A stretch of DNA of 64,000 bases. It comes from Afipia sp. 1NLS2. GTDB taxonomy: Bacteria; Pseudomonadota; Alphaproteobacteria; Rhizobiales; Xanthobacteraceae. The notes below the pieces were generated by a model, which was given only the letters and a program-made list of their open reading frames with translations, was not told the DNA's origin and did not search any database. Location of the stretch: NCBI RefSeq assembly GCF_000178995.1, contig NZ_ADVZ01000004.1:310001-374000 (forward strand), read 5' to 3'. A program made the translations under genes and the position numbers. Positions 3,417-58,684 of the stretch are shown one piece after another (the stretch's first letter is position 1; each line of letters starts with the position of its first letter).

Positions 3417-3429
3417 GATATAAAAAACA

Positions 3430-9304: not shown

Positions 9305-9910
9305 ATGTCTGGTGACGCAATGTCCAGTAAACCAATGCATGGGGGCGCCGAGTCCGGCGCTCCTGTGTCTCCGCTGAAATGGCTCCGCGAACTCGGGCCT
9401 TATATTCTCATTATCGGCGCCGCTATCTATTTCTATCGCGTCGCGTCCGAGATTCCCTATACGGAGATTCCCGGCCAAATGGGACCGGAGCGATGGCCCA
9501 AGATCATCATCGCTTTGCTGATCGCCGTTTGCGCATTCGAGGTTGTGCGTCGGATTTTCGTGTCGGTCAGGCCGCGTCCCGTTTCGGATGCTGCGAGCGA
9601 GGCGGATGAAGGCTTCTCGCAACAGATGGAAGCCCATCCGCTTCTGGTCGCTGCTGCGACTGCCGCCACGGTCGGCTATCTGCTGCTGTTCGACCTTGTC
9701 GGGTTCTTCGTCGCGACGGCCCTGTACCTCGTCGCTGTGATGTGGATCGGTGGGGTTCGCAGGCCCGTGTTTCTCGGCTTGTTGTCGCTGGCGATCAGCT
9801 TCGCATTCTCATTCTTCTTCATGAAACTGATCTACGTCGCCCTGCCGCTCGGGGAGGGGCCATTCGCCCGGATTTCCCTGATCGTCATGAAACTCGTCGG
9901 CGCTAACTGA
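9305..9910 (+). CDS. Tripartite tricarboxylate transporter small membrane subunit (TctB family)
   Basis: A 201-residue membrane protein with about four hydrophobic segments, two in each half (for example YILIIGAAIYFYRVAS and VGYLLLFDLVGFFVATALYL). The segment MGPERWPKIIIALLIAVCAFE is typical of TctB, the poorly conserved small subunit. The ATG at 9305 is 14 bases after tctC; an in-frame ATG at 9320 is an alternative start. It forms the permease with TctA. Confidence 0.82.
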   Translation: MSGDAMSSKPMHGGAESGAPVSPLKWLRELGPYILIIGAAIYFYRVASEIPYTEIPGQMGPERWPKIIIALLIAVCAFEVVRRIFVSVRPRPVSDAASEADEGFSQQMEAHPLLVAAATAATVGYLLLFDLVGFFVATALYLVAVMWIGGVRRPVFLGLLSLAISFAFSFFFMKLIYVALPLGEGPFARISLIVMKLVGAN

Positions 9911-39347: not shown

Positions 39348-39623
39348 GTAAGGAGTTTAGAAGGCGCTCACGGTCCCGCGCGAAATGTCTGCCACTGTGT
39401 TAAATTTCGCGTTGCAGCGAGCCCCTGGTGACGATGCTGCTTGCGATATCAGGAAGCCACGGCAGGCTCGGTTTGACCTAAGCGCTTTCGCGTCCCGGAG
39501 GTTGGTTGGGCAAACAAGCGCCCGCGAAGCTGTGCTTGCAGGTGCTTCGCGGTGGAAAGTAATGTGGTGATGTCGCCGATGTTCCCTCTGGGCCGCAGCG
39601 ATGCCTGCCTTTATGATGGCGGA
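39348..39623. other. Intergenic stretch upstream of mmcB-like gene
   Basis: Together with 39273-39347 this forms a 350-base gap. A 61-codon frame at 39385-39570 is open but resembles nothing recognised and has no clear ribosome site. Otherwise nothing is seen apart from the promoter noted above. Confidence 0.5.
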
Positions 39624-40111
39624 ATGTCCCACCCCCCTTTCAATGCTGTGGTGCCTCTCGTCGATGGCCGCCAATCCGAAACTGCGCGTCTGGTGGCGCG
39701 GGGTACGTCGCGTTTCCTCGCCTCGCTCGGTTTTTTTGCATTGAGGAATTGCCGTTACCTTCTGGTGGCCGAGCCGATCTGGTGTCGATGAACGCGCAAG
39801 GCGATATCTGGATCGTTGAAATCAAGTCCTCTCGCGAGGATTTGCGCGCGGACCGAAAATGGCAGATCTACCGGGCACATTGCGACCGGCTGTTTTTTGC
39901 TTTTCCAGCTGAATTGCCCTGCGATCTTTTCCCGCCCGATACTGGATTGATCGTAGCCGACGGATACGGCGCCTATCAGCATTGTGAAGCGCCCGAACAT
40001 CGCCTGTCTGCTCCGACACGCAAGGCGATGATGATTCGTTTCGGGCTGGCTGCCGCACGGCGGATGAGCCGGTTGATCGACCCGCAGGGGCATAGCATCA
40101 TCGACGAATAG
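39624..40111 (+). pseudogene. mmcB: mmcB-family DNA repair gene, frameshifted at a T7 run
   Basis: The N-terminal half (from the ATG at 39624: SHPPFNAVVPLVDGRQSETARLVARGTSRFLASLGF) and the C-terminal half (EELPLPSGGRADLVSM, WIVEIKSSREDLRADRKWQ, YRAHCDRLFFAFP) are both clear MmcB, but lie in different frames. They would join as LGFFCIEELPLPSG if the T7 run at 39731-39737 had eight T. MmcB belongs to a PD-(D/E)xK-like family (here ADL...EIKSS) acting in mutagen resistance, SOS-controlled in Caulobacter. Loss of one T could be a real mutation, a phase-variable tract or a read error. Confidence 0.75.
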
Positions 40112-40535: not shown

Positions 40536-41048
40536 ATGGGCATTTTCAGCAAAGACATCAAAACAATGGATGACCTGCTCCTGCATCAACTGCAGGACAT
40601 CTATTACGCAGAGCATCAGATCACCAAGGCACTTCCGAAGGTGATCGAAAAAGCGACCAATCGCGATCTGGTATCCGGCCTCAAGGCTCATCTGGAAGAA
40701 ACCTACAAACAGATCGAGCGCCTCGACAAAGTGTTCGCAAAACTCGGCCAGCAACCCAAGGGGACGTCCTGCCCGGCAATCGACGGGATCATCAAGGAGA
40801 CGGATGAGGTCGCGGGTGAGATAGAGGATAAGGCTGTGCTCGATGCCGCGATCGTTGCGAGTTGTCAGGCGGTCGAGCATTACGAGATTTGCCGATATGG
40901 CACGCTCATTGCGTGGGCCGAAAGCGCTGGCCATGATGAAATCGTCCGTCTTCTCACGACAAATCTCAACGAAGAGCATGGCGCCAACACCAAGCTGAAT
41001 ACCGTCGCGATGCGGAAGGGTGTGAACAAGAAGGCCTCTGCGGCCTGA
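40536..41048 (+). CDS. YciE/YciF ferritin-like family protein (DUF892)
   Basis: A 170-residue four-helix protein of the DUF892 family. DDLLLHQLQDIYYAEHQITKALPKVIEKA near the start carries the first Glu/His metal ligands. LKAHLEETYKQIERLDKVFAKLG, AVEHYEICRYGTLIAWAE and TNLNEEHGANTKL give the rest of the di-iron pattern. It has an AAAGGAG ribosome site. Members are induced by osmotic, oxidative and general stress; the reaction is unknown. Confidence 0.9.
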   Translation: MGIFSKDIKTMDDLLLHQLQDIYYAEHQITKALPKVIEKATNRDLVSGLKAHLEETYKQIERLDKVFAKLGQQPKGTSCPAIDGIIKETDEVAGEIEDKAVLDAAIVASCQAVEHYEICRYGTLIAWAESAGHDEIVRLLTTNLNEEHGANTKLNTVAMRKGVNKKASAA

Positions 41049-41225: not shown

Positions 41226-41921
41226 TCAATAGCACCGCGCGGCTGTGATGCGATGGACTTGGCGATCGCCGAGAAGATGAGCCATGAAAGCGGAGGTCTG
41301 GAAGATCGCCTTGAACGCTTCATCGCGGATGCTGAGTCCGCCGGTATAGGCGCCAAACGAGGGCATCACCGCGCGCAAGCCGTCGCTGGCAAAACATCGG
41401 CGCTCAACTGAACGGCCGCGCTGGCTGACCCGCGCCTTTGGATGAAGATGGCCGGCGATCTCGCCGTGCGCCCCCGTCGGTTCATGACGGAAGGTCAGCG
41501 GCCCCATTCGTACTTCCTTGGCAACCGTACCGCCGATCTCGCGCGGCAAGGCTGGATCGTGATTACCGGCGATCCAGATCCAGTCGCGTCCCGTCTGCAA
41601 TTTGGTCAGCGTTGCGCGATTAGCCATATCGAGCCGTTGATGCGCGTCGCGGTCATGAAAGCTGTCGCCGAGTGAAATCACTCTGCGCGGATCGTGGCGT
41701 GCGATTACCGCACACAGCTTCGCCAGTGTCGCGGCCGTATCGTAAGGCGGCAGCAGCACGCGGCGGGTGGCGAAGCTCGAACCCTTTTCCAGATGCAGAT
41801 CGGAAACGACGAGCAGACGCTCTTCGGCCCAGAACAGCGCGCCAGACAGATCGGCGATCATGTCGATTCCGGCAATGCGCACGACATTCAGCGCAGCCGA
41901 TGTAGCTGAAGCAATCGTCAT
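41226..41921 (-). CDS. pdeM: Ligase-associated metallophosphoesterase PdeM
   Basis: A 231-residue calcineurin-like phosphoesterase. The motifs are LLVVSDLHLEKGSSF (D-x-H), LGDSFHD, AGNHDP, FRHEP and GHLHPK, the full two-metal set. Its ATG overlaps the stop of the helicase gene (ATGA at 41918-41921), so the two are cotranscribed. PdeM is a member of the conserved ligase-associated DNA repair group with helicase, exonuclease and ligase, all present here. It probably processes 3' ends or damaged nucleotides; the in vivo substrate is unsettled. Confidence 0.9.
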   Translation of the reverse strand: MTIASATSAALNVVRIAGIDMIADLSGALFWAEERLLVVSDLHLEKGSSFATRRVLLPPYDTAATLAKLCAVIARHDPRRVISLGDSFHDRDAHQRLDMANRATLTKLQTGRDWIWIAGNHDPALPREIGGTVAKEVRMGPLTFRHEPTGAHGEIAGHLHPKARVSQRGRSVERRCFASDGLRAVMPSFGAYTGGLSIRDEAFKAIFQTSAFMAHLLGDRQVHRITAARCY

Positions 41922-44482
41922 GAATCCCGCGCCATCGCCTCTTTCACGAGTTCCTCGGCGGCTTCCGCCAAGAGTACGTCGGAGGCTTCGCCATAGACCG
42001 CCTCGCGTCCGATTTCCAGCATCACCGGCACCGCCAGCGGCGAAACCCGATCGAGTTCCCGATGGGTGATTCGCCGCTTGATGCGCGCCAGCATATCGCT
42101 GAGACGGCGGATGTCCAAAAGGCCGGTAGCGGCATCGGCGCGGGCGGCGCGCAACAGCACATGATCGGGCTGGTGCTTGCGCAACACATCGTAAACGAGA
42201 TCGGTCGAGAACAGTACCTGCCGCCGTGACTTCTCCTCGCCGGCAAAACGGCGCGGGATCAGGCCGGAGATCACCGCGCAGGTGCGGAACGTGCGTTTCA
42301 TCAGAGCGGATTCGGCGAGCCATGCTTCGAGATCGTCGCCAAGCATGTCGGGATTGAACAGCTCATCGAGATCGAGCCTGTCGTTTCGGATCGCGGCCGA
42401 GGCATCGCCCAGCATCCACACCGCCAGGGCATATTCGTTGGCGACAAATCCCAGTGGCCGCATGCGAGCGCGCTCCAGCCGCCGCGTCAGCAGCATGCCA
42501 AGCGTCTGGTGCGCCAGACGGCCCTCGAACGGATAGCAGACGAGATAATGCTTGTCGGCGCGCGGGAAGGTTTCGACCACCAGCTCGCGCGGGCCGGGGA
42601 TTTGCGAGAAGGCCGCCTGCAGCGACAGCCACTCGCGCACCTGCTCGGGCAGATGCGCCCACGCTGTGCGGTCCGCCAGCAACAGCCGCACGCGCTCGGC
42701 AAGGTAGGTCGAGAGCGGAAACTTGCCGCCCATATAGGACGGCACCTTGGCGTCAGCGTCATTGGCGCGAGAGACATAGACCTGATCTTCCATCAGCGCC
42801 TCGTAACGCACGATCTCGCCGCCGAACACGAAGGTGTCGCCGCTCACAAGTCCCTCGATAAAATATTCCTCGATCTCGCCGAGCAGCCGTCCGCCGCGCG
42901 CAATTGGTCCGGTCACGCCGCTACCACCACGCCGCGCACGCACGAGACGCACCTTCAGCATCGGCTCCTCGACGATGGTGCCGACATTGAGCCGGTAGCT
43001 CTGCCGCACTTTCGGATTGGCGACGCGCCAGCGTCCGGTCTTGTCCTGCCTGATGCGCGCGAAACGCTCGTAGCTTTTCAGCGCGTAGCCGCCGGTGGCG
43101 ACGAAATCAATCACATCGTCGAAATCGGCACGCGCGATGTCCGCATAGGGCGCGGCGCTGCGAATCTCGTCGTAGAGTTCGTCCGCGAGAAACGGCTCGC
43201 CGCAGGCGCGGCCAAGCACATGCTGCGCCAGCACGTCGAGCGCGCCTGCGCGCAGTGGCGGGGTGTCTTGCGCATTCTCCGCCACCGCATCGATGGCGGC
43301 GCGGCATTCCAGCACTTCGAAGCGGTTGGCTGGCACCATCACCGCGCGCGAGGGCTCGTCCAGGCGATGGTTGGCACGGCCGATCCGCTGCATCAGGCGC
43401 GAGGCGCCTTTCGGCGCGCCGACGTTGATGACGAGGTCGATGTCGCCCCAGTCGATGCCGAGATCGAGCGAGGAAGTGCAGACCACGCCGCGCAGTTTGC
43501 CAGCCGCCATCGCGTCCTCGACCTTGCGCCGCTGCGCGACATCGAGCGATCCGTGATGCAGGGCGATGGCGAGATTATCGTCGTTGATGCGCCACAGCTC
43601 CTGAAACAGCATCTCCGCCTGCGAGCGGGTGTTGACGAACATCAGCGTCGTCTTGTTGGCTTTCACGAGATCATAGATTTCGTGCAGCGCATGGCGCGCC
43701 GAATGCCCGGCCCAAGGCAGGCGCTCGCGTGTGTCGAGCATCTCGACGATCGGCGCCGCTCCGGCATCGGCGATTACGAGATCTGCGGCGCGAACCTCGC
43801 TCTGTTTTTGCGGGACCAGAAAACGGCACAGCGATTGCGGATCAGCGACCGTGGCCGAGAGGCCGATGGTCGTCGCCTGTGGCGCGAGCGTCCACAGCCG
43901 CGTGAGACCGAGAGCAAGCAGGTCGCCGCGCTTTGAAGTGACCAGCGCATGTAGTTCGTCGAGGACGATGCGCTTGAGCGAGGAAAACATATATGGTGCA
44001 TCGTCGGACGACAGCAGCAGCGCGAGTTGTTCCGGCGTCGTCAGCATGATGTCGGGTGGATAACGGCGCTGGCGCTGGCGGCGCGAGGCGGGCGTGTCGC
44101 CGGTGCGGGTCTCGACCCGGATCGGCAGATTCATATCGACAATCGGACGCTCGAGGTTGCGCGCGATGTCCACCGCGAGCGCCTTTAGAGGCGAGATGTA
44201 GAGGGTGTGGAGGCCTTCACCTTGCCGCACGTCGCGTCCGGTAGAAACCAGCTTGGGGCGCGAGGGTTTGGGCGAGCCCAGTTCCACCAGCGTCGGCAGA
44301 AAGCCCGCCAGCGTCTTGCCGGCACCGGTCGGCGCGATCAGTAGCGCGGAGCGGCCCTCGAAAGCCTTTTCCAACAGCGCGAGCTGATGCACCCGTGGCG
44401 CCCAGCCGCGCGCGGCGAACCAGCGCGCGAAACCGTCCGGCAAGCAGGGAAATGATCGATCGTCGGGGAAGGGTGCCGCCAC
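41918..44482 (-). CDS. Ligase-associated DEXH-box DNA helicase (Lhr-core type)
   Basis: An 854-residue superfamily-2 helicase. Motif I is LLIAPTGAGKTLAGFLP (about 34-50), motif II is VLDELHAL (DELH), motif III is GLSATV, and motif VI is RLMQRIGRANHR; the Lhr-type winged-helix and C-terminal core domains follow. It translocates 3'-5' on single-stranded DNA in family members. It is divergent from the exonuclease-ligase pair across a 137-base shared promoter region. Confidence 0.92.
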   Translation of the reverse strand: MAAPFPDDRSFPCLPDGFARWFAARGWAPRVHQLALLEKAFEGRSALLIAPTGAGKTLAGFLPTLVELGSPKPSRPKLVSTGRDVRQGEGLHTLYISPLKALAVDIARNLERPIVDMNLPIRVETRTGDTPASRRQRQRRYPPDIMLTTPEQLALLLSSDDAPYMFSSLKRIVLDELHALVTSKRGDLLALGLTRLWTLAPQATTIGLSATVADPQSLCRFLVPQKQSEVRAADLVIADAGAAPIVEMLDTRERLPWAGHSARHALHEIYDLVKANKTTLMFVNTRSQAEMLFQELWRINDDNLAIALHHGSLDVAQRRKVEDAMAAGKLRGVVCTSSLDLGIDWGDIDLVINVGAPKGASRLMQRIGRANHRLDEPSRAVMVPANRFEVLECRAAIDAVAENAQDTPPLRAGALDVLAQHVLGRACGEPFLADELYDEIRSAAPYADIARADFDDVIDFVATGGYALKSYERFARIRQDKTGRWRVANPKVRQSYRLNVGTIVEEPMLKVRLVRARRGGSGVTGPIARGGRLLGEIEEYFIEGLVSGDTFVFGGEIVRYEALMEDQVYVSRANDADAKVPSYMGGKFPLSTYLAERVRLLLADRTAWAHLPEQVREWLSLQAAFSQIPGPRELVVETFPRADKHYLVCYPFEGRLAHQTLGMLLTRRLERARMRPLGFVANEYALAVWMLGDASAAIRNDRLDLDELFNPDMLGDDLEAWLAESALMKRTFRTCAVISGLIPRRFAGEEKSRRQVLFSTDLVYDVLRKHQPDHVLLRAARADAATGLLDIRRLSDMLARIKRRITHRELDRVSPLAVPVMLEIGREAVYGEASDVLLAEAAEELVKEAMARDS

Positions 44483-44619
44483 GTACTCTAGCTAAACACA
44501 GCCATGCCCAAGGTCGAGTCCGCTTTGGCGGGGCAGATCGGGCTTGGAACCTTAATCTATGTTGAGAGCGAGGTCCCCGCCGGGCTCGCCTGGCAGGAAT
44601 AGCCTCCTATATACCGGGC

Positions 44620-45654
44620 ATGCGTTCACCCTCCCTCTTGAAGCCGGTTGCCGCCGGGCTCTGCTGCGAAGGCGGAGGCTTTCATATCGATCCGGTCAGG
44701 GCGGTGGAGCGCGCGCTGATTACGCATGGCCATTCCGACCATGCCCGCCCCGGACACCGCGCGGTGCTGGCGACGCAGGAAACGCTCGACATCATGCGGC
44801 TACGCTATGGCGATGATTTCGCCGGTTCGACACAGGCGATTTCCTACGGCGAGGAAATCCGGCTCAACGACGTGACCGTGGCCTTCCATCCCGCCGGGCA
44901 TGTCCTGGGCTCGGCCCAGATCATGGTGACGGATGGACAAACCCGCATTGTCGCATCCGGCGATTATAAAGACGCACCCGACCCGACCTGCGCGCTGTTC
45001 GAGATCGTGCCTTGTGATATTTTCATCACGGAGGCGACCTTCGGCCTGCCGATCTTCCGCCATGGGGAGGCAGAGGGTGAAATCCGCAAGCTGCTGGATT
45101 CGGTCGCCTTGTTTCCGGAGCGCGCACATCTGGTCGGTGCTTATTCGCTCGGCAAGGCACAACGGATCATCGCTCTGTTGCGCAAGGCGGGCTACACCGC
45201 GCCGATCTATCTTCATGGCGCGATGGAAAAGATCACGCGCTATTATGAGAGTCGCGGCATCGCGCTTGGCGAGCTACGGCTGGTGAAAGGCGTGAAGAAG
45301 GCCGATCTTGCCGGCACCATCACGCTGGCGCCGCCATCGGCCATTACCGACATTTGGACGCGCCGTTTCCCGGATCCTGTTGCGGCCTTCGCTTCGGGCT
45401 GGATGCGCACGCGCGCCCGTGCGCGGCAGAAGGGCATCGAACTGCCGCTGGTGATTTCCGATCATGCCGATTGGGAGGGCCTGACCACCACGATTACCGC
45501 GACGGGTGCGGGTGAAGTCTGGGTTACCCACGGGCAGGAAGATGCCCTGGTGCATTGGTGCAAGGCTAAAGGCTTGAAAGCGCGGCCGCTCGATCTCGTC
45601 GGCTACGGCGATGAGGACGAACCTTCGACGATGGGGGAAGGCGAACGGCCATGA
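44620..45654 (+). CDS. Ligase-associated DNA exonuclease (metallo-beta-lactamase fold)
   Basis: A 344-residue MBL/beta-CASP protein. The metal motif is THGHSDHARPGH (about 32-43), then FHPAGHVLGSAQI, the Asp motif SGDYKDAPD, and C-terminal DHADWEGL and THGQEDALVHW. It resembles SNM1/Pso2-type nucleases, which digest DNA 5'-3' and act in cross-link repair. Its stop overlaps the ligase start by 4 bases, so the nuclease and ligase are coupled. Confidence 0.9.
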   Translation: MRSPSLLKPVAAGLCCEGGGFHIDPVRAVERALITHGHSDHARPGHRAVLATQETLDIMRLRYGDDFAGSTQAISYGEEIRLNDVTVAFHPAGHVLGSAQIMVTDGQTRIVASGDYKDAPDPTCALFEIVPCDIFITEATFGLPIFRHGEAEGEIRKLLDSVALFPERAHLVGAYSLGKAQRIIALLRKAGYTAPIYLHGAMEKITRYYESRGIALGELRLVKGVKKADLAGTITLAPPSAITDIWTRRFPDPVAAFASGWMRTRARARQKGIELPLVISDHADWEGLTTTITATGAGEVWVTHGQEDALVHWCKAKGLKARPLDLVGYGDEDEPSTMGEGERP

Positions 45655-47360
45655 ACCGCTTCGCGCATCTGCTCAATCGGCTGGCCTATGAGCCCGGCCG
45701 CAATAACAAGCTGCGGCTGATCGTGAATTATTTCCGCGAGGTCGAAGATCCCGATCGCGGCTATGCGCTTGCGGCGCTCACCGGCGCCTTGTCGTTTCGA
45801 CATGCCAAGCCGGGACTGATCCGCGACCTGATTGCGGCGCGCACCGATCCGGTGCTGTTCGATCTGTCCTACGATTATGTTGGCGACCTGTCGGAAACCG
45901 TCGCGCTGATGTGGCCGATGCCGGAACGCGGCGGCGCCGGTCACAACCAGCCACCACCGACATTGAGTGATGTCGTCACGACCTTTCATACGCTCGGAAA
46001 GACCGAGATCCCCGCCCAACTCGTCCGATGGCTCGACCAGCTCGACGAGACCGGGCGCTGGGCGCTGTTGAAGCTCGTCACCGGAGGATTGCGCATCGGC
46101 ATTTCCGCGCGACTGGCCAAGACCGCCGCGGCCGCGCTCGGCGACAAGGACCCGCATGAGATCGAACTGATCTGGCCCGGCCTCACCCCGCCTTATCTCG
46201 ATCTGTTCGCCTGGCTGGAGGGCCGCGCCGACAAGCCGGTCAATCGCGATCCCGCGCCGTTCCGCCCGGTGATGCTGGCGCATGCGGTGGAGGATGCCGA
46301 TTTTGCCGCTCTCGATCCCACCGACTTTATCGCCGAATGGAAATGGGACGGCATCCGTGTGCAGGCGGTGAGCGGCCGCGACGAGGATGGCGAGATCGTT
46401 ACACGACTTTATTCGCGCAGCGGCGAGGACATCACCAGGAGCTTTCCGGATTTGTTGCCGTCGCTTCGCCTGCCGGGCGCGATCGACGGTGAACTGCTGG
46501 TGTTGCGCGAAGGCCGCGTGCAGAGCTTCAACGTGTTGCAGCAAAGGCTCAACCGCAAAAGCGTGACGCCGAAGTTGATCAAGGACTATCCGATCCATCT
46601 GCGTGCCTACGATCTGTTGGCGGACGACGAAAGCGACCTGCGTGAATTGCCGTTCGCCGAGCGGCGCGAACATCTGGAATCTTTCATCGCGCGGCTGGAC
46701 GACCCGCGCATCGATCTGTCGCCGTGTGTCCCTTTTTCGACATGGCCCGAGCTGACGGCCGCCCGCGCCGATCCATCGAGCGCGGGTGCGGGCGATGATG
46801 CAGATGCGGTGGAGGGCGTGATGTTGAAGCGCCGCGACGCGCTCTATCTGCCGGGCCGCCCCAAAGGCCAATGGTGGAAATGGAAGCGCGACCCGCACAT
46901 CATCGATGCCGTGCTGATGTATGCGCAGCGCGGCCATGGCAAGCGTTCGTCTTATTATTCGGATTACACGTTCGGCGTCTGGACGGAGGGTGAGGAGGGC
47001 GAGCAGCTCGTGCCGGTAGGTAAGGCCTATTTCGGCTTCACCGATGAGGAGTTGATCCAGATCGACCGTTTCGTCCGCCGTAACACCACGGAAAAATTCG
47101 GCCCCGTGCGTCATGTGGTGCACGAGCCGGATAAGGGACTCGTGCTGGAAGTCGCGTTTGAAGGATTGGCGCGCTCACCGCGCCACAAGTCCGGCGTTGC
47201 GATGCGTTTCCCGCGCATCAATCGGCTGCGCTGGGACAAGCCGCCCGGCGAAGCTGACAGGCTGGAGACGCTTGAACGGATGCTTAAACCTGTGCCGGCT
47301 TCGGCTGAAATTGATGCGTGTTACGAAACTAGCGCGATTCGTTTGGATCCCGGTGAATAG
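45651..47360 (+). CDS. Cisplatin-resistance/ligase-associated ATP-dependent DNA ligase
   Basis: A 569-residue ATP-dependent ligase with an N-terminal DNA-binding domain (about 1-200), the nucleotidyltransferase domain with motif I KWDG (Lys231-Gly234), and a C-terminal OB domain ending near RLRWDKPPGEADRLETLERML. EGVMLKRRDALY carries motif IV and WWKWKR motif V. It seals nicks using ATP and works with the helicase, exonuclease and PdeM genes. Its end overlaps the cupin gene on the other strand by 32 bases. Confidence 0.92.
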   Translation: MNRFAHLLNRLAYEPGRNNKLRLIVNYFREVEDPDRGYALAALTGALSFRHAKPGLIRDLIAARTDPVLFDLSYDYVGDLSETVALMWPMPERGGAGHNQPPPTLSDVVTTFHTLGKTEIPAQLVRWLDQLDETGRWALLKLVTGGLRIGISARLAKTAAAALGDKDPHEIELIWPGLTPPYLDLFAWLEGRADKPVNRDPAPFRPVMLAHAVEDADFAALDPTDFIAEWKWDGIRVQAVSGRDEDGEIVTRLYSRSGEDITRSFPDLLPSLRLPGAIDGELLVLREGRVQSFNVLQQRLNRKSVTPKLIKDYPIHLRAYDLLADDESDLRELPFAERREHLESFIARLDDPRIDLSPCVPFSTWPELTAARADPSSAGAGDDADAVEGVMLKRRDALYLPGRPKGQWWKWKRDPHIIDAVLMYAQRGHGKRSSYYSDYTFGVWTEGEEGEQLVPVGKAYFGFTDEELIQIDRFVRRNTTEKFGPVRHVVHEPDKGLVLEVAFEGLARSPRHKSGVAMRFPRINRLRWDKPPGEADRLETLERMLKPVPASAEIDACYETSAIRLDPGE

Positions 47361-47829
47361 GGTCGATCCATAATACAGTCTCTGGTTTCTCGATGGGTTC
47401 GATGTCGAGATTGATTGCAACAGCTTCACCGTCGCTTCGGACCAAAACGCATTCCAGTACTTCGTCGGTGCTGGCGTTGATCTCTTGATGCGGTACGTAA
47501 GGCGGCACAAAAATAAAATCACCCGGATTGGCTTCTGCCGTAAACTGAAGATGTTCGCCCCAACGCATCCGCGCCTTGCCTTTTACGACGTAGATGATGC
47601 TCTCTAAATGGCCGTGGTGATGGGCTCCGGTCTTGGCGTCGGGTTTGATGGTGACGGTGCCAGCCCATAATTTTTGCGCGCCGGCGCGCGCAAAATTAAT
47701 TGCAGCTTTACGGTCCATTCCGGGAGTGGACGGGACGTTCGGGTCGAGCTGATTGCCGGGAATGACCCGCACGCCGTCGTGCTTCCAGCGATCATGGTCG
47801 TGAGAATGGGAATGATCGTGTTCGGACAT
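47329..47829 (-). CDS. Cupin domain protein with His-rich N-terminus
   Basis: A 166-residue cupin. The ATG at 47829 (MSEHDHSHSHDHDRW) is preferred because upstream codons look non-coding. The metal-binding cupin motifs are GAHHHGHLESIIYVVKGKARMRWGE and GDFIFVPPYVPHQEIN. Such small cupins may be dioxygenases, isomerases or sensors. The N-terminal His run could bind metal. It converges with the ligase gene and the ends overlap. Confidence 0.82.
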   Translation of the reverse strand: MSEHDHSHSHDHDRWKHDGVRVIPGNQLDPNVPSTPGMDRKAAINFARAGAQKLWAGTVTIKPDAKTGAHHHGHLESIIYVVKGKARMRWGEHLQFTAEANPGDFIFVPPYVPHQEINASTDEVLECVLVRSDGEAVAINLDIEPIEKPETVLWIDPIHRDPNESR

Positions 47830-47893
47830 GTTTATCCCGCCTTGAATTGTCGCGTAGTGATCTAGCTGACGACATTTTATTCCAAAATAAGCC

Positions 47894-48547
47894 TTAGGTA
47901 GCTTTCTCCTTGTGATGGATATACTCAAACGCCAGCTTAAGGTCGCTGACAAAATGCGCGTATTCGCGAGCCTTGGCGTCTGCATCGGGCAGCCGCAACA
48001 GATAGGACGGATGCACCGTCACCAAAGCCTTGGTATCTTCAGTCAAATCCAGAAAGTGTCCGCGGTTTTTCCCGATCGGTGTGATCTTGCCGAAAACGCA
48101 TTGCGCAGCCGTGGCTCCCATAGCGACCACCAGAGCAGGCTTCACCGCTAGAAGCTCGCGCTCGTACCATTGCCGGCAGGCTCTGATTTCGGATGTGTTC
48201 GGTTTTTGATGCAGACGGACTTTTCCGCGTAGGACGAATTTGAAATGCTTCACTGCATTGGTGATGTAGACCTTGTTGCGCGGAATTTTGGCTTCGTCCA
48301 AACCACGAGCCAGAACCTGACCCGCGGGGCCGACAAATGGCTTGCCGGCCAGGTCTTCCTTGTCGCCGGGCTGTTCGCCGACCAACATGATGGGGGCATG
48401 AGCTGCGCCTTCACCGAACACGGTTTGCGTGGCGTCCTTGTAAAGATGGCAGGCCCGGCAATGCGCGGCTTCCTCGCGTAGATCCGCAAGGCTCTCTGTT
48501 CCAAAAAGGTCGGGGTCGGGGTCGAGGTCGCGGGCAGCGTGGCGCAT
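47894..48547 (-). CDS. UdgX-type uracil-DNA glycosylase
   Basis: A 217-residue family-4-like UDG. The start at 48547 is preferred over 48577 because of the strong GGAGAGAGGA site. Motif A is GEQPGDKED, motif B the VHPSYLLR segment, and Fe-S cysteines are at about C30, C33, C124 and C150. The UdgX-specific insert appears as KVRLHQKP (residues 109-116) rather than the published KRRIH, and its His113 matches the covalently reacting His. UdgX forms a covalent bond with the abasic site after removing uracil. It lies between the ligase group and the mutasome. Confidence 0.85.
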   Translation of the reverse strand: MRHAARDLDPDPDLFGTESLADLREEAAHCRACHLYKDATQTVFGEGAAHAPIMLVGEQPGDKEDLAGKPFVGPAGQVLARGLDEAKIPRNKVYITNAVKHFKFVLRGKVRLHQKPNTSEIRACRQWYERELLAVKPALVVAMGATAAQCVFGKITPIGKNRGHFLDLTEDTKALVTVHPSYLLRLPDADAKAREYAHFVSDLKLAFEYIHHKEKAT

Positions 48548-48613
48548 GGGTCCTCTCTCCGGCTTTCTGAAGTTCAATCAAGAGAGCCGCGGCAAGTTTC
48601 CGCGTCAAAAGTC

Positions 48614-48630
48614 AGAACCTCATTGGTTCT
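48614..48630. promoter_or_regulatory. AGAACC-N5-GGTTCT palindrome between udgX and imuA
   Basis: A perfect 6-base inverted repeat with a 5-base centre in the divergent spacer. It contains GAAC-N7-GTTC, the same half-sites as the alphaproteobacterial LexA box but inverted. It may serve either direction; role uncertain. Confidence 0.4.
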
Positions 48631-48692
48631 GTTGATAAAAATCTGGCTCCGAGACTCTGGTTGACTCGCTGGGGCTGGGCAGGATTATATTA

Positions 48693-48718
48693 GAATATAA
48701 CGTGAACATAACGTGAGC
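48693..48718 (+). promoter_or_regulatory. Tandem LexA-like boxes upstream of imuA
   Basis: The 11-base unit GAAyATAACGT is repeated directly: GAAT-N7-GAAC (48693-48707) and GAAC-N7-GAGC (48704-48718), sharing the middle GAAC. Alphaproteobacterial LexA binds GAAC-N7-GAAC direct repeats. The site is 62-87 bases before the imuA start, in promoter position for an SOS operon. Confidence 0.6.
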
Positions 48719-48779
48719 ATAACGGCTGGTCCGTCGTTAGAGGAAAACGAAGGGCTGCCTCGATCTCTGGGAGCGGCGC

Positions 48780-49592
48780 ATGACCGGCGCGCGTGTGAGT
48801 ACGCTTGCGTCCTTGCGGGACGCTATCCGCCATCTTGAGGCGCAAACCATGCCCCAGCAGATGGCGCGCGTGGCGCTCGGCCATCCCGGTGTGGATGCGA
48901 CGCTGCAGGGCGGCCTGCTGCGCGGCGCGCTGCATGAGGTGTTCGCGACCGAGACCCGGCAGTCGGCTTCTGCGACCGGTTTTGCCGCAGGTCTGGTTCA
49001 GTGTCTGGCGAGCCATCGGCCGATTTTTTGGGTGCAGCAGGATTTCGCGGAAGCCGAAGCCGGTGCCTTGTCGATGAACGGGTTTGCCGAACTGGGTCTT
49101 GATCCGTGCCGTTTGGTGTTGGTGCGGGTGCTAAATGCGGAAACCGCGCTGAAGGTCACCGCCGATGCGCTGGCCTGCGACGCACTCGGTGCGGTGGTGT
49201 GTGAACTGTGGGGCGAAACGAAAACATTCGATCTCACCGCCAGCCGGCGGCTGACACTGGCGGCCCAATCGTCCGGCGTATCCTGCGTGCTGCTTTGTAC
49301 ATCGAGCCAGCCTGTTAGCAGCACGGCGGAGACGCGATGGGTGGTGCGGGCCGCGCGCTCGCTTCCTGGACCGGAATGGAACGCCTGGGGCGAGCCGATG
49401 CTCGATGCAGAACTTGTCCGCAATCGTCATGGGCAGCTAGGCCGATGGATCATGGAGTGGAATTGTGACGAGCGTATCTTCCGTGAACCGGCGACGTATT
49501 CTCAGCCTTTGGTTGCCGCGCCTGCCGACCGACCGCATCAAACGCCGGCTCGCGCAGGAGGATCGATCGCGCGCTTGCGACGGACTGGATGA
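48780..49592 (+). CDS. imuA: Inducible mutagenesis protein ImuA
   Basis: A 270-residue RecA-like protein of the ImuA family (SulA/ImuA type), starting with ATG at 48780 after GGGAGCG. TMPQQMARVALGHPGVDATLQGGLLRGALHEVF near residues 22-55 is the typical opening. ImuA partners ImuB and DnaE2 in SOS-induced error-prone synthesis. It overlaps the next gene by 128 bases, which implies coupled translation. Confidence 0.88.
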   Translation: MTGARVSTLASLRDAIRHLEAQTMPQQMARVALGHPGVDATLQGGLLRGALHEVFATETRQSASATGFAAGLVQCLASHRPIFWVQQDFAEAEAGALSMNGFAELGLDPCRLVLVRVLNAETALKVTADALACDALGAVVCELWGETKTFDLTASRRLTLAAQSSGVSCVLLCTSSQPVSSTAETRWVVRAARSLPGPEWNAWGEPMLDAELVRNRHGQLGRWIMEWNCDERIFREPATYSQPLVAAPADRPHQTPARAGGSIARLRRTG

Positions 49593-51087
49593 CGCGTTTT
49601 TCCGCAGACCTTGGATCATTGCGGACAGGCAGCATAACGCGCTGCAGATCGTCGCCATGAATGATGCGGCGGCGGCCATCGGGCTTGAGATCGGCATGCC
49701 GGTTGCCAATGCACGGGCGATCTGTCCCGACATCGAGGTGTTCGATGCCGATGCAGGAGCGGATGCGCAGGCTCTCGCTCATATCGCGGACTGGTGCGAT
49801 CGCTTCACGCCGCTTGTCGCGCTCGATTCGCCTTACGGACTGTTTCTCGACATCAGCGGGTGCGCGCATCTGTTCGGCGGCGAAGCCAAGATGCTGGCGC
49901 TGGTGTGCGATTCACTGACGCGGCAAGGGTTCGTCGTCAATGCGGCGATTGCCGGAACGTCGGCTTGCGCGCGGGCGCTGACGCGCGCAGTGCGCGGCCG
50001 GATCGTGCCGGAAGGGCAAGAGTCTGCAGCTGTTGAGAACTTGCCTGTGTTCGCGCTCGGCGCGGAGGATGCCATCACACGCGGATTGCGCCGTGCCGGG
50101 CTGAAGACTATTGGCGACGTTGCCTCTCGTGAGCCCCGCGAGATCGCCGCGCGGTTCGGCAAGGCGTTCACGGATGTGTTGCGGGAAGTGCTCGGGCAAT
50201 CCGATGCGCCGATCAGTCCGCGGCGGCTGCCGCCTGACTTCTTGGTCGAGAGGCATTTTGCCGAGCCGGTTGCGACCGAAGATGCGATTTCCGCGACCGT
50301 ATCGGGCTTGGCGCAAAAACTCGTGGTTGCGATGGAGCAGCAAGGCAAGGGCGCCCGTCGGCTGGAGGCCAGTTTCTTTCGTGTCGATGGCGTGGTGCGG
50401 ACCATCGCAGTCGATGCGGGGCAGCCGGTCACGCGTGCCGGCCTGATCGATCGCCTGTTTCGGGAACGGTTTGATGTGCTGGCCGACCCGCTCGATCCGG
50501 GTTTCGGATTCGATCTCATCCGTCTGTCCGCAAGTCGTGTCGAGGCTGTGGTGCAGGAGCAGCGCGATCTCGATGCGCGGACGCAGGACAATGACGAGAT
50601 GGCGGCATTGATCGATCGCCTTGCGGCTCGTCTCGGCGGACAGCGGATCATGATCTACCTGCCGCAGGATACGCACATTCCCGAACGCGCTGCCCGGGCC
50701 ATGCCGGCGCAGGTTTATCTGCCGAAGGCTTTATCCGCGCAATGGCCGCGACGCTGCGAGAGCGAACCCCCGTTGCGGCCATTGCGGATGTTCGAAAGGC
50801 CCGAGGAAATCAAGGTCATAGCGGCGTCCGTTCCGGATGGTCCGCCACCTCGTTTTACATGGCGGCGTGCGACCCATGCGGTCGTGCGGGCGGAAGGGCC
50901 AGAACGCATTGCGATGGAGTGGTGGAAGAACGAGACGTCTGTCCTCACACGCGATTATTTTCGTGTCGAGGACACGGAAGGCCTGCGTTTCTGGATCTAT
51001 CGCGATGGTCTCTACGGAAGCGAGTCTGTCGATGACAAAGGCGAGCGTATCGACCCTAAATGGTACGTCCATGGGGTGTTCGCATGA
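49465..51087 (+). CDS. imuB: ImuB, Y-family DNA polymerase-like mutasome hub
   Basis: A 540-residue Y-family-like protein beginning at GTG 49465, since RRILSLWLPRLPTDRIKRRLA, the family N-terminus, follows directly. The palm and little-finger parts are present (FDADAGADAQALAHIADWCDRFTPLVALDSPYGLFLDISG; SPRRLPPDFLVERHF). ImuB normally lacks full polymerase catalytic residues and acts as a beta-clamp-binding adaptor. It overlaps imuA by 128 bases and dnaE2 by 4 bases (ATGA). Confidence 0.9.
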   Translation: MTSVSSVNRRRILSLWLPRLPTDRIKRRLAQEDRSRACDGLDDAFFRRPWIIADRQHNALQIVAMNDAAAAIGLEIGMPVANARAICPDIEVFDADAGADAQALAHIADWCDRFTPLVALDSPYGLFLDISGCAHLFGGEAKMLALVCDSLTRQGFVVNAAIAGTSACARALTRAVRGRIVPEGQESAAVENLPVFALGAEDAITRGLRRAGLKTIGDVASREPREIAARFGKAFTDVLREVLGQSDAPISPRRLPPDFLVERHFAEPVATEDAISATVSGLAQKLVVAMEQQGKGARRLEASFFRVDGVVRTIAVDAGQPVTRAGLIDRLFRERFDVLADPLDPGFGFDLIRLSASRVEAVVQEQRDLDARTQDNDEMAALIDRLAARLGGQRIMIYLPQDTHIPERAARAMPAQVYLPKALSAQWPRRCESEPPLRPLRMFERPEEIKVIAASVPDGPPPRFTWRRATHAVVRAEGPERIAMEWWKNETSVLTRDYFRVEDTEGLRFWIYRDGLYGSESVDDKGERIDPKWYVHGVFA

Positions 51088-54000
51088 AGGTCACCGATTA
51101 TGCGGAAATCGGCATCACCACCAATTTTTCGTTTCTGCGCGGAGGGTCTCAGCCGCAGGAATATGTGCATCAGGCCAGCGAACACCGGCTACCGGTGATC
51201 GGCATCGCCGACCGCAATACCTTGGCTGGCGTTGTGCGTGCCTATAGCGAGCTTGCAAACCATGAGGTCAAATACAAGCCCAGACTCCTGATCGGTGCGC
51301 GCCTCGTCTTCACCGACGGAACGCCGGACATTCTGGTCTATCCGCGCGACCGCGCCGCCTATGGTCGCCTCTGCCAGTTGCTGTCGCACGGGAAGCTGCA
51401 AGCGGAGAAGGGTGAGTGCCTTCTCACGCTCGATGATCTTCTGGATTTTTCCGAGGGGCAATTGCTGGTTCTGACGTTGCCGCATCGGTTTGAAACGACG
51501 GTTGCGTTGAAGGTGCTCGGCCGGCTGAAGCAAAGCCGCGCCGATGGAGTCTGGCTGGCTGCAAGCCTGCTGTATCGTGGCGACGATAGGCGGCGCCTCT
51601 CCCGTCTGTACCAGATCGCAGCGACGGGACGCGTGCCGCTGCTCGCCACAAACGACGTTCTGTATCATCATCCGGCGCGCCGTCCGCTGCAGGACGTGCT
51701 GACCTGCATCCTCGAAAAGACGACGATCCACGCCATCGGCAAAAAGCTGCAGGCTAATGCCGAGCGACATATGAAGCCCGGCTACGAGATGGTGCGGCTT
51801 TTCCGCGATCTGCCGGAGGCGGTCGCGGAGACCATGAGGTTCGCGGATCGCATCACCTTCGCTCTCGACGAATTGAAATATCAATATCCCGATGAGCCCG
51901 TGCCGCTTGGCAAGACGGCACAAGAACATCTCACGGATCTCGTTAACGCAGGAATCCAGTCTTATTTTCCCAGCGGCATCGACGAAAAATTGCAAGCAAC
52001 CATTGAGAAGGAACTGCGCCTGATCGAGAAACTCGGTTATGCGCATTACTTCCTGACGGTGCATGACATCGTTCAGTATGCCCGCTCGCAGAACGTTCTG
52101 TGCCAGGGGCGCGGGTCGGCGGCGAATTCCGCCGTCTGCTACATGCTCGGCATCACCTCGGTGAATCCCGCCGAAACCGATGTGCTGTTCGAGCGGTTCA
52201 TCTCCGAGAAGCGGTTGGAGCCGCCCGACATCGATGTCGATTTCGAGCATTCCCGCCGCGAAGAGGTGATGCAGTATGTCTACCGGCGTTATGGCCGCCA
52301 TCGCGCGGCGATTGTCGCGACTGTCATTCATTACCGGCCGCGCAGCGCCATTCGGGATGTCGGCAAGGCGCTCGGGCTGACGGAAGACGTCACCGCTGCG
52401 TTGGCCGATACGGTGTGGGGAAGCTGGGGCACGGGCGTCAGCGACATGCAGATCAGGCAGGCAGGCTTCGATCCGCAGAACGGAATGATCCGTCGCGCCG
52501 TCGAGCTTGCCACCGAGCTGATCGAATTTCCACGCCACCTGTCCCAGCATGTCGGCGGCTATGTCCTGACGCAGGATAGTCTCAATACCTACGTGCCGAT
52601 CGGTAATGCCGCGATGGAAGACCGCACCTTCATCGAGTGGGATAAGGACGACATCGATACGTTGAAGATGATGAAGGTCGATGTGCTGGCGCTCGGCATG
52701 TTGACCTGCATCCGCAAGTGCTTCGATCTGGTCGCGGATCATAAAGGGAAGCGCTATCAGCTTTCGGACATCAATGCGGAAAAGGATGATAGCGGCCCGG
52801 TGTTCGACATGCTGTGCCGTGGCGAGTCACTCGGCGTGTTTCAGGTCGAGAGCCGCGCGCAGATGAATATGCTGCCGCGCCTGAAGCCGCGAACCTTCTA
52901 CGATCTTGTTATCGAGGTCGCGATCGTCCGGCCCGGCCCGATCCAGGGCAATATGGTGCATCCGTATCTGAAGCGGCGGCAGATGAAGCCGGAAGAGATC
53001 GAATATCCTTATCCGAAGAGCGGCAACAAGAATGAACTGAAGGACGTGCTGTGCAAGACGCTCGGCGTTCCGCTATTTCAAGAGCAGGCCATGCGCATCG
53101 CCATGGCGGCGGCAGAATTCACGCCCGAGGAAGCCAATGGTTTGCGGCGTGCGATGGCGACGTTCCGCAACGTCGGCACCATGCCGAAATTTGAGAAACG
53201 CATGGTTGGCCGCATGATTAAGCGCGGCTACGATCCCGCATTTGCGCAAAGCTGCTTCGATCAGATCAAGGGTTTCGGCAGCTACGGCTTTCCTGAAAGT
53301 CACGCCGCGGCTTTCGCCCAGCTCGTCTATGTGTCCGCTTGGCTGAAATGTTTCCATCCCGATGCTTTTGCCTGCGGTCTTTTGAACTCGCAGCCGATGG
53401 GATTTTATGCGCCGGCACAGATCGTCGGCGATGCGCGCCAGAACGGCGTCGAGGTCCGTGAGATTGATGTGTCTCACAGCTTTTCACAGAACACTCTGGG
53501 AGAGCGAAGCGGCAAATACCATGTGCTGCACCTCGGCTTCCGGCAGATCGATGGATTCAAATGCGCCGATCCGGATGAGGAGAGGTGGCGCCGGATACAA
53601 GGCAAGACAAAATCGGAGGACTGGGGCGAGGCGATCGTCGCGGCGCGGTTGAGGCAGTCATTCACATCACTGGAGGATTTCGCGCGGGAGACTAAGTTGC
53701 CGAAACGTGCGCTGATCCTCTTGGCTGATGCCGATGCCTTCCGTTCGCTTGGACTGGATCGCCGCAGCGCGCTGTGGGCCATTCGCCGCCTGCCGGACAA
53801 TGTGTCGCTGCCGCTTTTTCAATCGACGGCTGCTCGCGAACAGCCTGACGAAGACAGCGCTCCGTTGCCGCAGATGCCGCTGCCGGAAGAAGTGGTAGCC
53901 GATTATCAGACCATACGGTTGTCCTTGAAGGGGCATCCGATGGAATTCCTTCGCGCGACATTTACGAAGCAGGGGATTGTTTCCTGTGCGGCCATTGCCC

Positions 54001-54410
54001 ATGAGAATGATAAACGGCGCGTGCGCTGTGCGGGCGTTGTGCTGGTGCGTCAGCGGCCGGGCAGTTCCAAAGGCGTTGTGTTCATGACGCTGGAGGATGA
54101 AACCGGAATTGCCAACATTGTGGTCTGGCCGAAAGTGATGGAGAAATTCCGCAAGGAAGTGATGGGTGCGCGGTTGATCGAGGTTGAGGGCTTCATCCAG
54201 AGTAGCCCGGACCGGGTGGTTCATCTGATTGCAGATCGTTTGTTCGACCGTACGTCCGATCTGATCGGACTCTCCAACGACGCTTTACGTCCATATCTGC
54301 AAGCGCAGAATTCTGCTGAAGGGGAGCAGAAGTTGATTTCTTCGGCTTCAGCCAAAGCCCGTCACCCGCGCCAGGTACGGATTCTTCCTGCTTCCCGGGA
54401 CTTCCATTGA
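51084..54410 (+). CDS. dnaE2: Error-prone DNA polymerase DnaE2
   Basis: A 1108-residue C-family polymerase starting at ATG 51084. The PHP domain (about 1-220) opens with YAEIGITTNFSFLRGGS and IADRNTLAGVVRAY. The catalytic Asp pair is in PPDIDVDFEHSRREEVMQY and further palm residues are in GRGSAANSAVCYMLGI. The C-terminal OB domain has VFMTLEDETGIANIVVWP. DnaE2 extends past lesions with ImuA and ImuB; the three genes form one SOS operon here. Confidence 0.95.
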   Translation: MKVTDYAEIGITTNFSFLRGGSQPQEYVHQASEHRLPVIGIADRNTLAGVVRAYSELANHEVKYKPRLLIGARLVFTDGTPDILVYPRDRAAYGRLCQLLSHGKLQAEKGECLLTLDDLLDFSEGQLLVLTLPHRFETTVALKVLGRLKQSRADGVWLAASLLYRGDDRRRLSRLYQIAATGRVPLLATNDVLYHHPARRPLQDVLTCILEKTTIHAIGKKLQANAERHMKPGYEMVRLFRDLPEAVAETMRFADRITFALDELKYQYPDEPVPLGKTAQEHLTDLVNAGIQSYFPSGIDEKLQATIEKELRLIEKLGYAHYFLTVHDIVQYARSQNVLCQGRGSAANSAVCYMLGITSVNPAETDVLFERFISEKRLEPPDIDVDFEHSRREEVMQYVYRRYGRHRAAIVATVIHYRPRSAIRDVGKALGLTEDVTAALADTVWGSWGTGVSDMQIRQAGFDPQNGMIRRAVELATELIEFPRHLSQHVGGYVLTQDSLNTYVPIGNAAMEDRTFIEWDKDDIDTLKMMKVDVLALGMLTCIRKCFDLVADHKGKRYQLSDINAEKDDSGPVFDMLCRGESLGVFQVESRAQMNMLPRLKPRTFYDLVIEVAIVRPGPIQGNMVHPYLKRRQMKPEEIEYPYPKSGNKNELKDVLCKTLGVPLFQEQAMRIAMAAAEFTPEEANGLRRAMATFRNVGTMPKFEKRMVGRMIKRGYDPAFAQSCFDQIKGFGSYGFPESHAAAFAQLVYVSAWLKCFHPDAFACGLLNSQPMGFYAPAQIVGDARQNGVEVREIDVSHSFSQNTLGERSGKYHVLHLGFRQIDGFKCADPDEERWRRIQGKTKSEDWGEAIVAARLRQSFTSLEDFARETKLPKRALILLADADAFRSLGLDRRSALWAIRRLPDNVSLPLFQSTAAREQPDEDSAPLPQMPLPEEVVADYQTIRLSLKGHPMEFLRATFTKQGIVSCAAIAHENDKRRVRCAGVVLVRQRPGSSKGVVFMTLEDETGIANIVVWPKVMEKFRKEVMGARLIEVEGFIQSSPDRVVHLIADRLFDRTSDLIGLSNDALRPYLQAQNSAEGEQKLISSASAKARHPRQVRILPASRDFH

Positions 54411-54984: not shown

Positions 54985-56511
54985 ATGCAGCTTGGTGAGA
55001 TTCTTCGCAAACATGATCCAGCTTCGACGGCGGTGCTGTTTGAAGATCGGGCGCACTCTTACGGAGAGCTGGAATCTCTCTCAAATCGCTTCGCGCAAAT
55101 GCTTCTCTCGGTCGGCGTCAAAGCTGGAGATGCTGTTTCCTATTTGTTGGGCAATGATCCCCTGCTGATAGCGGCCTACATTGCCGGTTTTAAAACCGGT
55201 ATCGTTACCAATCCTCTTCACGACAGACTGACCGCGGATGAGATCGCCTACATCGTCAACCATGCGGGTAGCAAGGTCGTGGTGGTTGGAGAACCATATG
55301 CGGCGACACTTGCGGAAGCATTGAAGAACATCAGCAACGTTCGCGTGGTTTGTTTTGGCAATCCGGGCGTTTTGCAGAATGTGGCCGTTCCTGATCTGGA
55401 TTCTTTTTCATCAGAGACGATTAGTCCGGGTGTGAACCCGAACGATGTCGCGCTGCTTCTCTATACATCTGGAACGACGGGGCGGCCGAAAGGCGTAATG
55501 CTGACGCATGGTAATGTCTCGTCCGGTATCGCGGCTGTAGCTGATGGTTTTCATCTCAAGCCATCCGATCGGACGCTATGTATCATGTCGCTGTCGCATA
55601 CTAATGCGCTGATGTTCAGTACACTGCCATATCTGTTGTCCGGCGCGTCGGTTGCGCTGTGCAAACGCTTCAGCGCTTCGAACCTATGGGATCTTTGCGA
55701 GCACTACGAGGTTAACAGCTTCAGTGCTTCGCCGACCATCCTAAGCATTCTGCTGGAAGACGCGACCGGAAAGACTGGTTACCCGAAGCTTGAGTTCGTG
55801 AAGGTAGCGTCCGCGCCTACTTCGGTTGATCTGTCGAACCAATTTCACGCCCGTTTCGGACAAGATTTACTTATTGAAACTTACGGTCTGACGGAAACCA
55901 CATCCATCAATGTGATGAATCCGCTTCGCGGTCCGCGCAAACCTGGGTCCATCGGAAGGCCGTTGCCGCCGAGCGAGATTCGCATCGTTGATGGTCAGGG
56001 CAAGGAACTGCCAGCAGGCGCAACAGGTGAGATCGAAATCCGCGGCCCGACTGTGATGAAGGGCTATTACAAAGACCCCGATGCGACGGCTGCGACGATC
56101 AGAGGCGGCTGGGTGAGATCGGGTGATCTGGCGAAGGTTGACGATGATGGTTACATTTTCATCGTCGGTCGGAAAAAGGAAACGATCATTCGCGGTGGTG
56201 AAAACATTTCGCCGCTTGAAGTCGAGCAAATCATCGCACGACATCCGGCGGTGCGGGAAGCCGCGGCGGTCGGAATTCCCGATCGCATTTATGGTGAGGT
56301 TGTCGCGGCCTGCGTCGTCAAGCGCGACGATGTAACGGAGAGCGAATTGATCCGGCACTGCAGCGAGTATCTTGCCTCTTTTAAAGTGCCGGCTCGCATC
56401 GCTTTCGTTGACGAATTGCCGCGCAATCCGATCGGAAAGTTTATCCGCCGGGCCTTGCTGCCATATTTTAAAGACGAGAGTACGCCGATTGCCAGCAAGA
56501 GGAACGCATGA
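54985..56511 (+). CDS. AMP-forming acyl-CoA synthetase/ligase
   Basis: A 508-residue ANL-superfamily ligase; the start at 54985 (MQLGEILRKHDP) is chosen, with in-frame ATG 54976 and GTG 54967 as alternatives. The P-loop is LLYTSGTTGRPKG (about 159-171). The hinge and adenylate motifs are GWVRSGDLAKVDDDGYIFIVGRKKETIIRGGENI, and the catalytic Lys is in RNPIGKFIRR. It activates a carboxylic acid to its CoA thioester. Its stop overlaps the larA-like start by 4 bases, so its substrate probably relates to the LarA reaction. Confidence 0.87.
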   Translation: MQLGEILRKHDPASTAVLFEDRAHSYGELESLSNRFAQMLLSVGVKAGDAVSYLLGNDPLLIAAYIAGFKTGIVTNPLHDRLTADEIAYIVNHAGSKVVVVGEPYAATLAEALKNISNVRVVCFGNPGVLQNVAVPDLDSFSSETISPGVNPNDVALLLYTSGTTGRPKGVMLTHGNVSSGIAAVADGFHLKPSDRTLCIMSLSHTNALMFSTLPYLLSGASVALCKRFSASNLWDLCEHYEVNSFSASPTILSILLEDATGKTGYPKLEFVKVASAPTSVDLSNQFHARFGQDLLIETYGLTETTSINVMNPLRGPRKPGSIGRPLPPSEIRIVDGQGKELPAGATGEIEIRGPTVMKGYYKDPDATAATIRGGWVRSGDLAKVDDDGYIFIVGRKKETIIRGGENISPLEVEQIIARHPAVREAAAVGIPDRIYGEVVAACVVKRDDVTESELIRHCSEYLASFKVPARIAFVDELPRNPIGKFIRRALLPYFKDESTPIASKRNA

Positions 56512-57923: not shown

Positions 57924-57943
57924 TCCGTTAACGGAGAGATCCC

Positions 57944-58657: not shown

Positions 58658-58684
58658 TCAAAAGCGACCAAGGGAGGACAGGAC

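Follow-up and report, generated by a model that had tools for sequence, protein, structure and literature searches.

The locus analysed here raises the question of whether a dense block of DNA repair genes works as one unit, or consists of separate parts that have come to lie side by side. The window, by which we mean the whole 64,000-nucleotide stretch of DNA that was studied, carries within 13 kb a ligase-associated repair module, a gene for the uracil-DNA glycosylase UdgX and the ImuA-ImuB-DnaE2 mutasome. An earlier note on this DNA had counted nine repair genes in the block, and took their tight association as a hint that uracil or cross-link processing is linked with mutagenic synthesis. 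The repair block does exist, with eight such genes rather than nine by profile search, and its tight association resolves into two: UdgX and the mutasome form a conserved divergent locus, as the idea supposed, whereas the joining of the ligase module to them is rare. Read along the window, the block switches strand three times: pdeM and the helicase gene are encoded on minus, the exonuclease and ligase genes on plus, a cupin gene and udgX again on minus, and imuA, imuB and dnaE2 again on plus. In window coordinates, the features are as follows:

39570..40111, plus strand, mmcB, with one frame break in a T run; outside the conserved unit
40536-41048, DUF892 gene, between mmcB and pdeM
41226..41927, minus strand, pdeM, ligase-associated metallophosphoesterase; TIGR04123 at 226.5 bits (cut-off 150)
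41918..44482, minus strand, Lhr-core type DEXH helicase of the ligase-associated module; TIGR04121 at 1110 bits (cut-off 850)
44620..45654, plus strand, ligase-associated exonuclease of the metallo-beta-lactamase type; TIGR04122 at 468 bits (cut-off 325)
45651..47360, plus strand, ATP-dependent DNA ligase of the cisplatin damage response type; TIGR04120 at 818 bits (cut-off 400)
about 47329-47829, minus strand, cupin-domain gene (Cupin_2), non-repair, between ligase and udgX
47894..48547, minus strand, udgX, stand-alone; TIGR03914 at 300.7 bits (cut-off 189.95)
48693..48718, plus strand, predicted imperfect LexA-type operator, between udgX and imuA
48780..49592, plus strand, imuA, named also from its place upstream of imuB; NF033429 at 37.5 bits, below the cut-off of 150
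49465..51087, plus strand, imuB, Y-family-like accessory protein (IMS, IMS_C), conserved beside dnaE2
51060..54410, plus strand, dnaE2, error-prone polymerase; PRK05672 at 1514 bits (cut-off 939)

The ligase-associated module is complete, with PdeM (its start placed at the Met that precedes the domain), the DEXH helicase (DEAD, Helicase_C, WH_Lhr and DEAD_assoc domains by profile search), the exonuclease and the ligase each above its profile cut-off. The mutasome is recognised by its gene order, by a DnaE2 above cut-off and by the Y-family domains of ImuB, with ImuA below its own cut-off; ImuB also matches seven Pol IV models, each below cut-off. The cupin gene, which adjoins UdgX in another genome of the same genus as well (G537, locus L191), means that the block is not composed of repair genes alone. 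Farther downstream of dnaE2, at 56508-61009, lies a gene group for the nickel-pincer cofactor, comprising LarA-like, LarB and LarC1/LarC2 genes together with a binding protein of the SsuA type.

At the left edge, mmcB was described earlier as broken and outside the block, and so it is: to the left of the DUF892 gene, its reading frame changes once around a run of seven T, so that N-terminal part and body do not share a frame, and PF06319 is matched by the in-frame body at profile positions 27-147 only. This break may be an assembly error or a real loss. MmcB is present in 107 of the 119 genomes of our family sample, and of these 107 the window's genome is the sole one with mmcB on the same contig as dnaE2, UdgX or the ligase at a distance of up to 80 kb. 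A DUF892 gene stands beside udgX in congeners and was considered as an old edge of the locus, a candidate that we rejected: the window's DUF892 gene is another paralogue (44%), this genome has its closest copy on contig C8 (70%), and the 16-kb stretch around that copy gave no match to the GMC or M20 neighbours seen in locus L014.

The association of UdgX with the mutasome extends well beyond this genome. In the family sample, UdgX scores above the cut-off in at least 63 genomes, DnaE2 is found in at least 102 and the ligase in at least 92. Score limits were set at the cut-off or 1e-60 for UdgX, at 1e-200 or 1e-270 for DnaE2 and at 1e-80 or 1e-100 for the ligase, and adjacency was counted within single contigs and among the matches listed, so that all adjacency counts are lower bounds. 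UdgX lies within 6 kb of dnaE2, always divergently, in at least 24 of the 57 family genomes that have both, where random placement would by our own arithmetic give well under one of 57. The distance is about 2.5 kb for stand-alone UdgX; longer cases span 4.3 to 5.6 kb, and their gaps hold a DUF4130 and a radical SAM gene when the loci are inspected; the two distances thus fit a stand-alone and a fused form. From 577 named UdgX loci we took the 80 best, nearest to the window's UdgX and so leaning towards near relatives. The closest of them by UdgX come from Afipia (the nearest rows), Bradyrhizobium, Rhodopseudomonas and Tardiphaga records, and in 34 of the 80 the stretch also contains imuA or imuB. 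Outside the family this adjacency is uncommon: in the sample of the order, UdgX and DnaE2 lie within 6 kb of each other in at least two of the 41 genomes with both, and 10 to 15 kb apart in at least three more, among the matches listed.

Does the gap between the two divergent units carry a regulatory site? The alphaproteobacterial LexA operator is GTTC-N7-GTTC. A strict search of the window found no exact LexA box in this gap, which had at one point suggested a locus outside SOS control; comparison with relatives and a score matrix replaced that view with a degenerate, overlapping site. In 36 of 36 comparison loci (23 with UdgX beside imuABC, and 13 other, hand-picked DnaE2 loci), imuB is preceded at 697 to 851 bases by an exact GAAC-N7-GAAC box, and in 19 of them the sequence of the box is GAACATATCATGAAC. 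At the corresponding place, some 770 bases ahead of imuB, the window has three half-sites (GAAT, GAAC and GAGC) in direct repeat at 11-bp spacing, with two overlapping boxes of one mismatch each. With a matrix made from the 36 sites, which themselves score 25.4 to 41.5 bits, the window's site reaches 28.6 bits and is the best in the 64 kb, the next non-overlapping one scoring 14.4. Together with the conserved divergent arrangement, this LexA-type box upholds the proposed link between uracil processing and the mutasome at the level of anatomy, and the UdgX-mutasome half of the block is a conserved and probably SOS-controlled locus.

Moreover, the box accompanies UdgX itself. Of the 34 loci with imuA or imuB, 31 have an exact box where the UdgX operon begins, against 10 of 1443 control windows from the same loci, and so do 33 of the 46 loci without imuABC nearby, against 23 of 1931 (34 and 46 being the best 80 of the 577 named loci). 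UdgX therefore appears linked to the SOS response with or without a neighbouring mutasome, and this regulatory link is independent of adjacency. Six of the 13 box-less loci among the 46 are beta- and gammaproteobacterial records, classes in which the LexA motif differs from the alphaproteobacterial one. The box is there too in the 13 comparison loci where no intact UdgX adjoins imuABC, so it is primarily the operator of imuA; as the sole exact box near both units, it would govern udgX as well. Two loci of another family (L172 and L173, from genomes G284 and G257) have three exact LexA-type boxes between imuA and the UdgX operon, and the two sides may be served separately there.

In the window, UdgX stands alone, and the radical SAM protein TIGR03916, which we take to be COG4277, and the DUF4130 protein TIGR03915 are missing from its operon. 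The full set is found within the genus in G106 (L015), G087 (L031) and G537 (L191). The UdgX tree comprised 94 of 145 rows, with three large groups thinned, five individually chosen loci and some short-flank loci left out and the first ten letters of the window's row trimmed. On it, adjacency to imuABC takes three changes, and the stand-alone form beside imuABC nine, at least four of them forced by starred branches; the label of L181 as adjacent without radical SAM is unreliable, its imuB being about 15 kb off and its stretch ending inside DUF4130. The window's UdgX groups with the fused-form L031 of the same genus and with L056, named Afipia. In five Bradyrhizobium loci (L053, L062, L079, L082 and L083), tblastn found no radical SAM gene while DUF4130-UdgX is kept, and from such partial operons UdgX emerges as the longest-kept part. 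UdgX has also been lost, as shown by a remnant in G525, by G065, without a match over the cut-off, and by L043 (G019), where udgX matches beside imuB fall in two pieces at 3114-3546, probably a decaying copy. The terminal branch of the window's own UdgX is long (0.23, against 0.03-0.05 in the nearest rows), which could reflect relaxed selection. On the same tree, L087, a record titled Arthrobacter, has a UdgX locus that groups with Sphingomonas and probably comes from a mislabelled genome.

UdgX is in use in genome methods. The protein encoded in the window matches the solved UdgX structures at E about 1e-54. Its translation has GEQPG as motif A, a motif defined in the accessible part of PMC10359453. 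Aligned to the solved UdgX, its loop is KVRLH against KRRIH, keeping the histidine and changing the first Arg and the Ile. Its motif B is HPSYLLR against a consensus of HPS(S/A)(L/V)(L/V)R, with a Tyr at the fourth place that L015 and L014 share. A loop with this histidine, following a K-x-R-[ILV]-H type pattern, occurs in 140 of the 145 UdgX rows. In the studied UdgX, the loop histidine captures the abasic site, and the accessible text of PMC10359453 reports a proposal of AP-site protection and terms the physiological role largely unknown. Judged from its residues, the window's UdgX would also capture abasic sites. Some stand-alone forms have a short xxLF before the UdgX domain (at about 48490-48547 in the window, and in L014, L028, L052, L140, L142 and L144). 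The xxLF resembles a sliding-clamp binding motif. As a general trait of UdgX adjacent to the mutasome, such a motif was discarded: by eye, none is present in the linkers of the fused forms, and xxLF is found in some stand-alone forms only.

In a DNA search of 29 genomes of the window's genus with window positions 46300-51000 as query, and counting by eye from match rows, imuA-imuB was matched in 27 genomes, with udgX beside it in 15 of the 27. The ligase is joined to imuAB in three of the 24 genomes that match both (the window's genome G000, G522 and G525), one of the 24 ligase matches, in G530, being only about 110 bases long. The block of G522 has no cupin gene. Judged by the identity of its ligase and ImuB, G525 is the closest relative that carries the block; its ligase module and imuABC are otherwise complete, but UdgX survives only as a short remnant (L190, about 9605-9644); this remnant, and the presence of udgX beside imuAB in only 15 of 27 genomes, indicate that UdgX is dispensable. 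G537 has radical SAM, DUF4130, UdgX and cupin genes beside imuABC and its ligase on another contig. These four genomes form one group with full support in the ImuB tree, so that a single join of ligase and mutasome is the simplest reading, the position of G537 being left aside.

A survey of related genomes, proposed earlier as the check on whether the association is peculiar to this genome, thus found the ligase module beside the mutasome in G522 and G525 of the same genus, and in G104 of another, so that the objection foreseen in the earlier note, an adjacency confined to this genome, does not apply. It is nevertheless a rare join. Across the family, the ligase lies within 10 kb of dnaE2 in at least four of the 88 genomes with both (G000, G104, G053 and G100), about 0.4 being expected from random placement, and UdgX lies within 1 kb of the ligase in at least two of 58 (G000 and G104). 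Outside the family, the order sample gives at least one of 93 for DnaE2 and ligase within 10 kb, among the matches listed: this is G254, of another family, where the two genes are on the same strand, 812 bases apart (L180), and where the exonuclease, helicase and pdeM had no match in the 19.5-kb stretch around them. The class sample, limited to genomes of 90% completeness or more, adds no case within 10 kb among the matches listed for the 48 further genomes that have both genes; in two of them the distance is about 22 kb. The lineages examined with the join are four (the genus group, G104, G053 with G100, and G254) and show three arrangements. G104 repeats the gene order of the window with a full UdgX operon, while G023 and G063, of the genus of G104, have ligase and dnaE2 on different contigs; in G053 and G100 (L038 and L039), imuABC is followed by pdeM-lhr and exo-lig, the ligase module coming after dnaE2. 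No exact LexA box was found at the promoters of the ligase module in the window, L030, L038, L130, L131, L133, L189 or L190, and the single boxes in L132, L138 and L139 are away from them. The ligase half is a rare join that a few lineages have, and nothing points to its being controlled together with the mutasome. Neither conserved adjacency (at least 4/88, at least 1/93 and 3/24) nor shared regulation places the ligase module within the SOS mutasome unit, and the coupling of cross-link repair to the mutasome that had been suggested comes down mostly to position.

These data bear on two opposite accounts of the block. If all nine genes made up one cross-link repair pathway, with nucleases, helicase and ligase unhooking and sealing and with UdgX and the mutasome handling the remnant, one could point to the joins in four lineages, random placement giving about 0.4 cases in the family, and to the associated presence of ligase and DnaE2 in the class sample (both in 49 genomes, one only in 50 and 7, neither in 106, with descent and genome size uncontrolled). 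MmcB, for its part, is said to act in resistance to mitomycin C and cisplatin, with the hypothesis that it works with TLS polymerases (accessible part of PMC9578287). The rarity of the join and its three arrangements, the ligase of G254 without other module genes, the ligase-module promoters without an exact LexA box and the distance of mmcB in other genomes nevertheless make this account very improbable in our view. At the other extreme, the adjacency would have no functional meaning, UdgX having been inherited in that place within one family and the ligase having come there by chance in a shuffled region. The three adjacency changes on the UdgX tree and the losses of UdgX in several genomes (G525, and the split copy of L043) would suit such an account, as would the edges compared, where no window gene from outside the block was matched, nor any flank gene of L014 apart from a different DUF892 paralogue. 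However, the UdgX operon retains its LexA-type box away from imuABC as well (33 of 46 loci), and several genera have preserved the divergent gap although the operon's two other genes were lost repeatedly; we consider this account unlikely.

What UdgX does beside the mutasome is a separate matter. We hold it moderately probable that the locus belongs to the SOS response, with udgX and imuA-imuB-dnaE2 diverging from one LexA-type operator, that UdgX shields uracil-derived abasic sites there, and that a rearrangement joined the ligase to it. LexA cleavage would induce the udgX and mutasome units together. The window's UdgX is what is left of a larger SOS operon (radical SAM protein, DUF4130 and UdgX) after loss of the two other parts; it would remove uracil in the single-stranded DNA where the mutasome works, and would stay covalently on the abasic site, protecting the site from cleavage for as long as the gap awaits filling or repair. 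The ligase module would have been moved beside the locus in a few lineages, would retain its own promoters and would not need to act jointly with the mutasome. The same gene facts would also fit a UdgX that acts after synthesis rather than on the template, clearing uracil that comes from the error-prone polymerase or from dUTP pools during the SOS response. A self-capturing glycosylase would, however, be a costly clean-up enzyme, and the window's genome has two further UDG-superfamily genes above the family cut-off that could do the turnover; we find post-synthesis clean-up doubtful. Somewhat more doubtful still is a UdgX that serves as the dedicated partner of ImuABC, a suicide cap for abasic sites derived from uracil at DnaE2-filled gaps in the manner of SRAP, left alone after the loss of its own partners and with an xxLF that could reach the clamp of ImuB.

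The shielding locus that we favour resembles several known systems. SOS control of a UDG pair is already published, and the UdgX-imuABC locus is a variant of it: for this COG1573-COG4277 pair, SOS regulation has been reported for Verrucomicrobia and for Alphaproteobacteria, with a prediction for Bacteroidetes, and SOS glycosylases have been proposed to handle misincorporation by error-prone polymerases (PMC8565304, accessible part). That part treats the pair as a uracil-DNA glycosylase repair system and does not name the cross-linking UdgX. The same proteins are present in the full-form L015, where the operon begins with a LexA-type box, whereas the window keeps UdgX only and has its gap in common with imuABC. 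In the open-access literature, subscription papers being outside our scope, we found no statement that the SOS glycosylase is UdgX, no report of UdgX sharing a divergent operator with imuABC, nothing linking UdgX with ImuB and no title on UdgX in the SOS response; searches there for ImuB with radical SAM and uracil-DNA glycosylase, or for COG4277 with LexA, led to PMC8565304 only.

The mutasome itself is of the Caulobacter type, with the same gene order, gene overlap and an upstream LexA-type operator, from which the window differs by its divergent UdgX across that operator. The known ligase-associated cluster (Lhr-core, MPE/PdeM, exonuclease and ligase) is represented by all four genes in two divergent pairs, and the difference in the window is that its copy is joined to udgX-imuABC. 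Ejaz and Shuman reportedly worked on this cluster in Pseudomonas putida, as cited in PMC8301817. SRAP proteins cross-link to abasic sites. Neighbourhoods of SRAP/YedK with ImuB-C, in the accessible part of PMC3765255, likewise have another protein beside imuABC, and the legend to its Figure 1 mentions DUF4130 with SplB-like radical SAM proteins and UDGs. In contrast to SRAP, UdgX is an unrelated protein and makes the abasic site itself (in part after PMC10359453, accessible part).

For the biology of these bacteria, the divergent gap with its LexA-type box points to when UdgX is made and with what, and the role of UdgX becomes testable by simple deletions in bradyrhizobia that are non-pathogenic. 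The comparison across genomes also separates a true unit from mere position within a striking block of genes.
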